Source of the DNA: Polyangia bacterium
GTDB taxonomy: Bacteria > Myxococcota_A > Polyangia > Polyangiales > JAUICN01
Assembly: GCA_030427835.1 (NCBI GenBank)
Contig: JAUICN010000002.1
Span: forward strand, 186,001 to 250,000
Direction: 5' to 3'
DNA: 64,000 nt
Under the pieces are notes generated by a model. The model was not told the DNA's origin. It saw nothing but the letters and a program-made list of their open reading frames with translations, and did no database searches. The position numbers and the translations under genes are program-made. This document shows, piece by piece, positions 43,139 to 47,785 of this stretch (the first letter of the stretch is position 1; each line of letters begins with the position of its first letter).

Positions 43139-44425
43139 ATGAGTACGATTGTCATGCCTTCCCTTGGGGAAAGTGTTTCCGAGGGCGAAATTGGGAAATG
43201 GTTGGTCACGGAAGGCCAGCGGGTGGAGAAGGATCAGCCCCTCGTGGAGGTGTTGACCGACAAGGCCGACAGCGAGATTCCTGCCACGGAAGGTGGTGTG
43301 GTGACCAAGATTTTTGCCGCCGAAGGTGATGTCATCGCCGTGGGCGACAACCTTTGCGAGCTAGATCCTGCAGGCGAGGCCACCGCGGGTGCCCCGGCGG
43401 AGGCCGCGGGCGATTCGGCCACTGCAGATACTTCTACCGGGTCCGGAGCTGCGGATTCGGACGTGGTGAGCTCCCCTTCGGTACGCAAGTTGGCCCGGGA
43501 AGAGGGCGTGGATCTTGGAAAAGTTCAGGGCAGTGGCTCCTCGGGCCGTGTCACCCAGGATGACGTCCGTCGCGCGGCGGATGGTGGAGCCTCCCCCGCA
43601 GCGATTCCACCGGTTCCCCCTGCGGCCATTCCTGCATCATCATCCGCGTCGGCTTCTACGGCCGTAGGCGGTGTTGCTCCCCAACCTGCCAAGAGTGCCT
43701 TTAAGGTGCCCCCCTACAAGCCATCTCCTGGGGATGAGGTGATCCCTTACAACCGTCGTCGACGGATCATCGCCGATCACATGGTTTACTCCAAGCTCAC
43801 CGCTCCCCACGTGGTGACCTTTGCCGAGTGTGATCTCCATGCCGCAGCAAAGGTGCGTGAGGCCCATAAGAAGGCCTTCAAGGCCGATGGGCTGAACCTC
43901 ACCTACCTTTCCTTTGTGGCCGCCGCGACCTGCCGTGCCCTTCGTGAGGTGCGTGCTGTGAACGCCCGCGTGCTTGACGACGCCTACGTGATCTTCCGGG
44001 ACATTAACCTAGGCGTGGCCGTGGATACCCCAGACGGCTTGGTTGTTCCCGTCATTCGCAACGCCGATGAGCTTTCCGTTCGCGGCATTGCCCGGGCCAT
44101 CGATGACATCGCTACCCGCGCCCGCAACGGCGACCTCACCCCGGACGACTTGGCCAACAAAACGTTCACCATTTCCAACCCGGGCCGTAAGGGCAACCTG
44201 GTCGGCGGAGCCATCATCTCCCAACCCAACGTGGGGATTCTGCGCATCGGCGAAATCAAAAAGCGTGTGGTGGTGGTGGAAAAGGACGGCGAGGATCTCA
44301 TGGCCATCCACCCCGTCATGCAAATGGCCCTGTCCTACGACCATCGTATTGTGGATGGTGTGGCGGCGAATGGGTTTTTGTGGACTGTGAACGATATTCT
44401 CCAACGCGCCGACTTCGAACTGTAG
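43139..44425 (+). CDS. 2-oxoacid dehydrogenase complex E2 (dihydrolipoyllysine acyltransferase)
   Basis: 428 residues with all E2 domains. Lipoyl domain at 1-76 with the lipoylated Lys42 in LTDKADSEIPA; Ala/Pro/Thr-rich linker; E3/E1-binding domain at about 116-152 (SPSVRKLAREEGVDLGKVQG, GRVTQDDVRRA); another Ala/Pro linker; catalytic acetyltransferase core ending SYDHRIVDG (His402, Asp406). The start has a strong GAGGA ribosome site. It could serve pyruvate, 2-oxoglutarate or branched-chain oxoacid dehydrogenase; E1 and E3 genes are not in the window, so which complex it joins cannot be decided. Its TAG stop is the first three bases of a structured repeat. Confidence 0.92.
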   Translation: MSTIVMPSLGESVSEGEIGKWLVTEGQRVEKDQPLVEVLTDKADSEIPATEGGVVTKIFAAEGDVIAVGDNLCELDPAGEATAGAPAEAAGDSATADTSTGSGAADSDVVSSPSVRKLAREEGVDLGKVQGSGSSGRVTQDDVRRAADGGASPAAIPPVPPAAIPASSSASASTAVGGVAPQPAKSAFKVPPYKPSPGDEVIPYNRRRRIIADHMVYSKLTAPHVVTFAECDLHAAAKVREAHKKAFKADGLNLTYLSFVAAATCRALREVRAVNARVLDDAYVIFRDINLGVAVDTPDGLVVPVIRNADELSVRGIARAIDDIATRARNGDLTPDDLANKTFTISNPGRKGNLVGGAIISQPNVGILRIGEIKKRVVVVEKDGEDLMAIHPVMQMALSYDHRIVDGVAANGFLWTVNDILQRADFEL

Positions 44426-44543
44426 TCGCCGGAGGTTGCCCAGACCGCGGCTTACCGCTTCGGTCGGGACCTCAACGTATGTTGAATACGCCTCGGCCCC
44501 TCCCTGCAGGGGCGCTCGCGGTCTGAACAACCTCCGGCGACTA
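44423..44543 (+). repeat. structured intergenic repeat, copy B1
   Basis: Starts on the TAG stop of the E2 gene. Arm 44423-44449 pairs with 44517-44543 (25 of 27; a CC/AA internal mismatch). Between the arms: hairpin ACCG-CTT-CGGT, conserved ACCTCAA, hairpin CGTAT-GTTGA-ATACG, conserved CGCCTCGGCCC, and hairpin GCCCCT-CCCTGC-AGGGGC. Same core as the A copies at 33083-33334. Confidence 0.82.
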
Positions 44544-44549
44544 CGTGCG

Positions 44550-44658
44550 TTGTGGTGGGCGTGGCTTACCGCTTCGGTCGGAACCTCAACGTATGTTGAA
44601 TACGCCTCGGCCCCTCCCTGCAGGGGCGCTCGTGGTCTGGGCAACCTCCGGCGACTAC
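44550..44658 (+). repeat. structured intergenic repeat, copy B2
   Basis: Direct repeat of B1 at an offset of 114 bases; the core 44564-44634 is nearly identical to 44450-44520. Its own left arm is degenerate (44546-44563), but its right arm 44634-44657 is a perfect 24-bp inverted match of the B1 left arm 44423-44446. B1+B2 thus form one 235-base element with perfect terminal inverted repeats. The right arm contains the TAG stop of the convergent sctQ-like gene. Confidence 0.82.
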
Positions 44659-46167: not shown

Positions 46168-47157
46168 ATGAATCACTCGGCTTCCACAGCTTCTGGCCCG
46201 GATCGATCGCGCGCGCTTGCAATCTATTGGAGTGTCTTTCTGGCCTACACTGTGTTGGTCATTCTGTGGGGCGCATTTGTTCGGGCAACCGGGTCCGGTG
46301 CGGGTTGCGGTGATCACTGGCCCCTGTGCAACGGTCAGGTAATTCCCCGCTCGGATTCCTTGCAAACATTGATCGAGTTTGGCCACCGTGTCACTTCTGG
46401 GTTTGCTTGGTTGGGTGCCCTTGCGGGGTGGCTGTGGACCCGGAGGGCGTACCGTGATGGGGTTCGCCCTGTGCGTAGGTGGGCTTTTTTGGTGTGGGTA
46501 CTCATGTCCACGGAAGCTCTTGTGGGTGCGGGCCTGGTGGTTTTTGAGATGGTTGCCCAGAACACTTCGGTGGCGCGCGGGGTGTGGGTGAGCGCGCACC
46601 TCACCAACACGTTTTTGTTGGTTGCGGCCATGACGCACACCACCTGGTGTGCGTGGAATCCGGTGACCGCCCTTGGCATTTCCCCGGGGCGCCGGGTAGC
46701 CCGTTGGATCCCGTGGTTGATGGCGGTGTGGCTTGTGGCCGGGATTACCGGTGCGATTGCGGCCCTGGGAGACACGCTTTTTCCAGCCACTTCCCTTGCT
46801 CATGGGCTGCAACAGGATGTGGACTCCGCCTCCCACCTGTTCCTTCGCCTTCGTCTCTCCCACCCTGTGTTTGCGATCCTTGCAGCGCTGTTGACCCTGG
46901 GTTGGTGTGCCTGGTTGCAGTTGAGGGAACACCTGGCTCCGAAACAGCGCCTGCTTGCCCTGGGTGTGTGTGCGCTTGTGACCTTGCAGATCGGCCTTGG
47001 GTTCTTGAACGTGATTCTTCTGGCTCCGATTTGGCTGCAGCTTGTTCATTTGGCCCTGGCCGACGGGATTTGGATCGCCACGCTCTGGCTTGGGGCTTCC
47101 CTCAGGTTACCTCCACCGATTCCAGCACAAGCCCCCGTGCGTCCATGGCCTGCTTGA
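46168..47157 (+). CDS. ctaA: heme A synthase
   Basis: 329-residue polytopic protein with about eight membrane segments. CtaA signatures: ILWGAFVRATGSGAGCGDHWPLCNG near the first helix pair, with the paired cysteines, EFGHRVTSGFAWLGALAG, TEALVGAGLVVF, VSAHLTNTFLLVAAM, and in the second half FLRLRLSHPVFAILAAL and QLVHLALADGIW, which provide the heme-binding histidines. It converts heme O to heme A for cytochrome oxidase; CtaB and SCO genes are 2-3 kb downstream. It lies antisense between two type III secretion genes and overlaps the sctP-like stop region by 56 bases. Confidence 0.9.
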   Translation: MNHSASTASGPDRSRALAIYWSVFLAYTVLVILWGAFVRATGSGAGCGDHWPLCNGQVIPRSDSLQTLIEFGHRVTSGFAWLGALAGWLWTRRAYRDGVRPVRRWAFLVWVLMSTEALVGAGLVVFEMVAQNTSVARGVWVSAHLTNTFLLVAAMTHTTWCAWNPVTALGISPGRRVARWIPWLMAVWLVAGITGAIAALGDTLFPATSLAHGLQQDVDSASHLFLRLRLSHPVFAILAALLTLGWCAWLQLREHLAPKQRLLALGVCALVTLQIGLGFLNVILLAPIWLQLVHLALADGIWIATLWLGASLRLPPPIPAQAPVRPWPA

Positions 47158-47785
47158 GAGCGTCGGCGAGTCGGTGGGCTCCGCGCACGTCGCCTGACTC
47201 ACTTTCGAACTCCGCAGAGACGCCGTTGTCGTCTGCCAGCAACTGCACTTTGAGCGGCTCGCCGTCTACCGTGAGTTCCATGTGCGCCACGTGGTGTGCG
47301 GTGCTCCCCACCTGCGCTTTTCCGATTCGGAAGGAGTGCAGTACCTTGTCTGCCATGGCCTGAACTTCAGCCTGGGTGTGGGCCGTGTGGGAAGTCATTT
47401 CTGCAGTGGCAGCGGCGGTGGGTTCTGCAACGGCGGGCAGCCACCAGGGGGCAGATTCGAGGGGCAGGCTTGATTTGAGACCCTCCGCCTTGTCTTCCAT
47501 CTGGAGTTCCTGTTCCCGGGGGGATCCGTTTTCCGAACCTGTGCCCGATCGATCACGCCCGCCGGTTGGGCGCCCGCCGGCCATGAGGTGGGCTGCGAAG
47601 TTTCCGCCCTTGGATGCCTTGGATGATCGATCTCCCTTGGAAGACCGTTTTCGATCGGATTCCCTGGTTTTTTCCAGCCGGGAGCGATCCCGTGACCCGG
47701 CCTGGCGGTCGGCCTCCAGGGAGTGATTTCGGCTTGGATCGGAAGAAGACGGGTTTGGCCCGGAAGATGCACTGGTGGTTTGCAT
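47102..47785 (-). CDS. SctP/FliK-like needle or hook length-control protein
   Basis: 227 residues. The N-terminal half is hydrophilic, Ser/Arg/Lys-rich and probably disordered (SRDRSRLEKTRESDRKRSSK). The C-terminal 85 residues resemble the conserved FliK/SctP C-terminal domain: HMELTVDGEPLKVQLLADDN, GVSAEFESESGDVRGAH, LADALKQAMDARGLVLESVEV. Together with the SctQ-like gene on the same strand a type III secretion context is likely. The assignment is by eye and short. The last 56 bases overlap ctaA on the other strand. Confidence 0.65.
   Translation of the reverse strand: MQTTSASSGPNPSSSDPSRNHSLEADRQAGSRDRSRLEKTRESDRKRSSKGDRSSKASKGGNFAAHLMAGGRPTGGRDRSGTGSENGSPREQELQMEDKAEGLKSSLPLESAPWWLPAVAEPTAAATAEMTSHTAHTQAEVQAMADKVLHSFRIGKAQVGSTAHHVAHMELTVDGEPLKVQLLADDNGVSAEFESESGDVRGAHRLADALKQAMDARGLVLESVEVT

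Follow-up and report, generated by a model that had tools for sequence, protein, structure and literature searches.

The element at 44423-44657 of the window (the whole 64,000-nt stretch of DNA analysed, from a Polyangia bacterium) is very probably a tandem dimer of a non-autonomous mobile hairpin repeat, MITE- or REP-like, whose family has spread through the Myxococcota. The family is real and apparently unnamed, made up of stop-codon-associated mobile hairpin repeats of the MITE/REP-like type; no description of it was found in the open-licence literature. Polymorphic occupancy of sites and target duplications show the family to be mobile, and from this behaviour of the family we infer how the window copy came to be inserted.

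The window element and its neighbours

An earlier note on this DNA had described a single 235-bp element bounded by perfect 24-bp terminal inverted repeats and holding two direct copies of a structured core. The inverted repeat is exact, 44423-44446 being the reverse complement of 44634-44657, and the arms extend further, to 28 nt with 27 pairs; the direct copies are also as described, 95% identical over 100 nt at an offset of 114. What was taken for one element is actually a tandem dimer, with a 114-nt unit, of a hairpin repeat of about 120 nt. Repeat comparison within the window brings out the right-arm sequence a third time, at 44517-44544, and the order of parts is left arm, core A, right arm, 14-nt spacer, core B, right arm (Table 1). 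The apparent terminal inverted repeat thus exists because one ~120-nt hairpin unit is tandemly doubled and unit B, which would stem from a tandem duplication, has no left arm of its own; the single left arm is able to pair with the right arm of either unit. The feature is not due to chance: the fold of unit A has a z of -10.0, and the genome holds homologous copies elsewhere.

Each end of the dimer supplies the stop of the adjoining gene, as the note had also claimed: TAG closes the E2 ORF on the left, and CTA on the plus strand is the TAG stop of the SctQ-like ORF on the right. Both C-termini are complete by Pfam, with 2-oxoacid_dh reaching residue 423 of 428 in the E2 protein and FliMN_C reaching 479 of 482 in the SctQ/FliN-like protein. 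The core of unit A starts 23 nt past the E2 stop, like that of most family copies. The flanks read CTG-TA-G...C-TA-CGG, giving at best a 2-bp TA repeat. Beyond the SctQ/FliN-like gene lies another ORF on the same strand (47102-47785); this neighbourhood could belong to a type III secretion or flagellar cluster.

Table 1. Parts of the window element and the genes on either side of it
Feature	Position	Strand	Basis or remark
2-oxo acid dehydrogenase E2 (dihydrolipoyl acyltransferase)	43139..44425	+	Pfam PF00198, PF00364, PF02817
Left arm, outer stem, 28 nt	44422..44449	+	repeat search, folding
TAG, E2 stop and first bases of outer stem	44423..44425	+	
Unit A	44431..44537	+	covariance-model match, R1 102.8 bits
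Unit A core GGCTTACC	44449-44456	+	then inner stem, CTCAACGTATGTTGAATACGCC apical part, CTGCAGGGGCGCTC
Right arm of unit A	44517..44544	+	93% complementary to 44422-44449
Unit B, second tandem copy	44545..44651	+	R1 71.0 bits; 95% identical to unit A over 100 nt
14-nt spacer between units	44546..44559	+	sequence, repeat register
Unit B core GGCTTACC	44563-44570	+	
Right arm of unit B	44631..44658	+	repeat search
TAG stop (CTA on +) of SctQ/FliN-like gene, opposite dimer end	44655..44657	-	
SctQ/FliN-like C-ring protein, 482 aa	44655..46103	-	Pfam PF01052

Copies of the repeat and their common hairpin

The earlier note had proposed a search for copies in the genome and its relatives, and had set a lone copy without relatives against its own reading; the repeat is multi-copy in both. 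A DNA search of the organism's own genome (G000, 3.32 Mb in 30 contigs) returned divergent copies of the window unit, among them a second tandem pair at C9:67754/67874. Seven copies were aligned (A1), with double changes in 19 of 36 predicted pairs. In the own genome covariance model R1 gives 16 copies at E<=1; the own-genome total is 15-16. Searched across the order, R1 found copies in 11 of 18 genomes, with a maximum of 58 in one (counts include 13 in G003, 6 in G005, 58 in G009 and 44 in G015). A second model, R2, built from 98 sequences, had hits in 21 of the 141 genomes of a phylum-wide sample. The JADGRG MAG G154 carries about 70 copies, an estimate based on its arm matches, 76 forward and 68 reverse.

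A scan of GTDB contigs by sequence pattern gave at least 119 matching stretches; among the matches listed, the usable names were Myxococcales, Sandaracinaceae and 'Deltaproteobacteria' MAGs, and the other records bear no label beyond Proteobacteria or uncultured bacterium. A phage origin was rejected, the exact core pattern having zero matches in viral contigs, and plasmids gave weak partial matches only. Identity with a known structured RNA was likewise rejected, since the window element and ten loci from other lineages had no match in Rfam 15 above the gathering score.

Several variants deserve mention. The own genome holds a divergent subfamily with inner stems CTCCCCTGCTCG...CCTGCGCTGCCGGGG (C30:10581, C30:136432, C19:16244, C9:70857 and C9:95607). 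In several G007 copies (L034, L053, L269, L271, L273) the motif GGGGACGCGTGGTTGCTTAATTGTCTT, which may be another repeat, lies 20-50 nt past the right arm. A G003-like subfamily (L073, L079, L094, L147) has a 20-28-nt tail after the hairpin that closes with the terminal motif once more, GGATCNCACACTAG, which hints at right ends that are nested or alternative.

The family core, GGCTTWCSTCCTC...CTGCGGGSGCGCTC, is nearly invariant, and the stems vary by lineage yet remain paired. The outer stem is lineage-specific in sequence and in many subfamilies contains a mismatch, usually C.A, nine pairs outside the core. Inward of it come GGCTTW / GCGCTC, where the internal loop is small and asymmetric, and then CSTCC / GGGSG, whose S-S pair alternates between C-G and G-C (63 vs 33 of 97); the innermost parts are another variable stem and, at the apex, a GTAC-type hairpin. 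In a set of 97 distinct sequences the paired cells amount to 90.2%, as against 62.9% after shuffling, and double-change cells number 924 as against 313; in slid controls the covariation signal collapses. Wobble pairs are scarce, and among single-step departures within subfamilies, read on the gene strand, A.C outnumbers G.U (62 vs 27). Covariation was for this reason rejected as sole proof of an RNA, the more so as perfect double changes may also come from template-switch repair of palindromes; the covariation may also stem from a hairpin in DNA, from selection acting on the opposite strand or from correction of the palindrome by template switching. The conserved core probably serves protein recognition, or else makes the RNA or DNA hairpin useful or tolerated.

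Stop codons, empty sites and target duplications

The position of stop codons at the element's ends proved to be a family-wide trait and not a peculiarity of the window locus. With ORFs of at least 100 codons considered, 111 of 191 distinct copies with flanks have a same-strand stop that precedes the GGCTT core by 20-36 nt, the distance peaking at 24-32 nt, and the same placement recurs in additional lineages. Against these 111 stand 20 of the 191 with a mirror-image stop on the other side, and 4.0% of random positions in the same loci. Counted by orientation, 112 copies adjoin a left stop at 20-40 nt, with 70 left-only vs 25 right-only, and the right side often carries a tail of 20-60 nt. The idea that the element always follows a stop in the sense direction was rejected, as such right tails are common and the G154 copies at in-frame stops lie both ways round, 8 sense and 7 antisense; the orientation bias is real but dependent on lineage. 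A simple coding model placed 9 copies within predicted genes and classified the surroundings of 101 as 51 convergent, 36 tandem sense, 11 tandem antisense and 3 divergent.

Mobility is seen among congeners. The empty sites and target duplications that the earlier note had suggested looking for are both there, the former between congeners G003, G012 and G144, the latter as 3 bp in G154, 8-9 bp in a G009 subclass and CTAG in G003. At L050 the element is present in G003 and absent from G012 and G144, where a single CTAG is the common stop of both convergent genes, with one TAG per strand; the G003 insert has CTAG at either end, leaving each gene with its own stop. At L058, empty in G012, the G003 element has the stop codon on one side and, on the other, a T-rich hairpin with the look of a resident terminator. 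For L042 the syntenic site in G012 is not empty and holds an internally deleted remnant. Internally deleted hairpin remnants, which are expected of long palindromes, were seen in G012 at C7:220918 and C4:93741.

Clean duplications are seen in G154, whose element, AGAGCTGTC...GACAGCTCT, is 119-122 nt long. A perfect 3-bp direct repeat flanks 21 of 25 copies (TGA 14, TCA 6, TTA 1). A TNA triplet is always a stop codon on one strand, and is therefore by itself no evidence of stop targeting. However, in-frame stops that end ORFs at least 80 codons long account for 15 of the 25 insertions, whereas in these loci stops make up only 10-15% of the TNA sites outside genes, a figure that rests on rough gene calls and assumes that insertion is tolerated at all non-coding sites. 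The stop preference thus exceeds what is expected from TNA plus purifying selection. The G009 subclass is longer (177-196 nt), with ends GTAACYGTTCA...TGAACRGTTAC and perfect 8-9-bp direct repeats (L032, L043, L171, L248, L250, L251 and L252, mostly in G009), and most of its copies keep the hairpin core. Ends and duplication lengths so different between lineages indicate that one core travels with varied ends. Clean duplications are confined to some lineages; own-genome flanks read TA...TA or inverted stops (CTAA...TTAG). Among the features that define MITEs, the family is short, non-coding and multi-copy (15-70), and has terminal inverted repeats and target-site duplication.

Origin of the repeat and competing explanations

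In the preferred reading, a mobile hairpin repeat, the hairpin is most likely inserted by a putative transposase acting in trans. Its targets would be TA/TNA triplets, which in G154 mostly have the form C-TNA-G, and the mobilising transposases perhaps differ between lineages. Stop codons are triplets of this kind, and duplicating one would spare both neighbouring genes, so that the insertion survives. Insertion at a stop triplet would be nearly harmless because the triplet is duplicated, and the same duplication would explain why both window genes end at the element's ends, the E2 and SctQ-like genes each finishing at a TA(G), one per dimer end. A symmetric target does not account for the orientation bias. 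In G154, arms of the form GTCCAG...CTGGAC go only with TGA in sense (16/16), and arms with the compensated triplet GTCGAA...TTCGAC go with TCA/TTA in 9 of 14 (Fisher p = 0.00014 between subfamilies), a correlation that could be a guide-like link, for example through pairing of the folded strand with the target. The excess stop preference, the orientation bias and this arm-triplet link could reflect either retention for an effect in the 3' UTR or directional targeting. The stronger idea, a stop-codon-homing element in which the hairpin itself sets place and orientation of insertion, we consider unlikely.

The search for a mobilising enzyme covered several known types, and RAYT, IS630 and integron integrase are each absent or fail to track copy number. 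An IS630-type mobiliser was rejected, DDE_3 being missing from several copy-rich genomes (G000, G003, G134, G007), with the incompleteness of the MAGs as a caveat. An IS630/Tc1 type, with TA duplication and a preference for CTAG, would suit the CTAG at both ends in G003, but G154 has TNA; the CTAG/TA case presumably resembles IS630 or other IS5 subgroups. The 3-bp TNA duplication, a trait of the IS5/IS1031 type, is present in the G154 subfamily only. An all-against-all comparison of ORFs at 230 loci found no transposase-like recurrent family beside the copies, the few recurrent neighbours being orthologous or housekeeping genes such as nrdJ, and no longer element was found between G154 arms at the loci examined. 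RAYTs and integron integrases are excluded as a general partner, again with MAG incompleteness as a caveat.

Could the copies instead be kept for what they do in the transcript? A putative cis-acting RNA of the 3' UTR, which would protect the mRNA 3' end or slow ribosomes at the stop, with spread copies retained for that function, is a tenable explanation though not the one we favour. It fits the strongly stable hairpin, its fixed site just past stops, mostly in sense, and the three copies that lie directly after tRNA genes, at 14-21 nt (L085, L135, L288). It also fits the repeated finding of the element behind nrdJ, which encodes the B12-dependent ribonucleotide reductase (C-terminus ...CYKCLNCGNSMGCS*) and has a copy 24-29 nt past its stop in seven genomes (L078, L081, L115, L155, L158, L245, L263); genes upstream of copies are otherwise unrelated. 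There is a precedent in E. coli, where 3'-end protection or ribosome slowing has been proposed for REPs within 15 nt of the stop, and where nrdAB likewise has a stop-proximal REP (PMC12306157). The intermediates, however, run contrary to the expectation for a gene-strand RNA (27 G.U to 62 A.C), occupancy is patchy, with sites lost or decayed in congeners, and the TGA orientation in G154 holds away from in-frame stops too. One copy (L259, 1001-1107) lies between tRNA-Ile and tRNA-Ala genes, a layout typical of an rRNA operon spacer, where a terminator would be harmful. That the element is an ordinary intrinsic terminator serving two convergent genes in both directions is improbable in spite of the stable hairpin and the enrichment of convergent over divergent pairs (51 and 3 of the 101 classified copies). 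The stem carries a T-rich stretch at its 3' end in 1.8% of copies vs 2.1% of background, none is called as a terminator at the window element, T runs, if any, are on the 5' arm, a separate T-rich hairpin persists beyond the inserted element in G003, and the core is conserved across families, unlike terminators. The earlier note was accordingly right to call the element unlike an ordinary terminator, and its alternative of a bidirectional 3'-end element lacks support in so far as an intrinsic terminator was meant.

The note's MITE/REPIN comparison holds for the MITE/REP type, given the many copies, empty sites and duplications, but is not supported for a REPIN mobilised by RAYT. A RAYT (Y1 transposase) origin would agree with the palindromic, dimeric, 3'-proximal structure and with a window end that reads GTAG; nevertheless it is very improbable, for Y1_Tnp is absent from G003, G005, G009 and G015, all of which have copies, GTAG is not kept among copies whose outer ends vary by lineage, the unit is ~120 nt instead of 20-40, and direct 3-bp and 8-9-bp duplications are no RAYT hallmark. 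Scarcely credible is an integron attC-like site, that is, a recombination site that acts as a folded single strand behind the stop codon of a cassette: its variable hairpin, conserved unpaired positions, location right after stops and strand asymmetry are all matched here, but none of the 18 genomes encodes a protein at the integron-integrase cut-off (TIGR02249), the copies are scattered after unrelated chromosomal genes and not in cassette arrays, and they have flanking direct duplications.

Among known systems, Correia/NEMIS and RUP are bacterial MITEs of the same general kind. The MITEs RU-1, RU-2 and ERIC are also ~100-200 bp, non-coding and bounded by inverted repeats, with target duplications, transcribable hairpins and high copy number (PMC2759123, PMC2229807). 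Measured against these MITEs, the present family differs in having a conserved core with termini and duplication length dependent on lineage (TA/TAG, TNA, 8-9 bp), in abutting stop codons exactly and in being confined, as far as tested, to Myxococcota. REPs of the GTAG and CGTC superfamilies are similarly palindromic, often dimeric and stop-proximal, with conserved departures from pairing, and CGTC REPs, as here, have no dedicated transposase; they are, however, 20-40 bp long, and our family has neither a conserved GTAG tag nor a RAYT link (PMC3733652). The Bordetella BRE (Beta-proteobacterial repeat element), compared by description only, is likewise a dispersed GC-rich repeat, ~90 bp long, with tandem arrays and several host genera, but belongs to a different phylum and lies partly inside coding sequences (PMC3110155). 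The IS1031 subgroup of the IS5 family makes 3-bp TNA duplications (PMC12016507) like those of 21 of the 25 G154 copies, whereas other lineages of the family show TA/CTAG or 8-9-bp duplications. The mobile repeat described here is a marker of recent mobility in the Myxococcota, where few such repeats seem to have been described. Short palindromic repeats near gene ends are common in bacteria, and how they reach stops, whether by targeting or by selection, has so far been hard to test. With natural replicates in many genomes, clean stop-triplet duplications, empty sites and a strictly conserved core, this family makes the choice between targeting and selection at stops directly testable.
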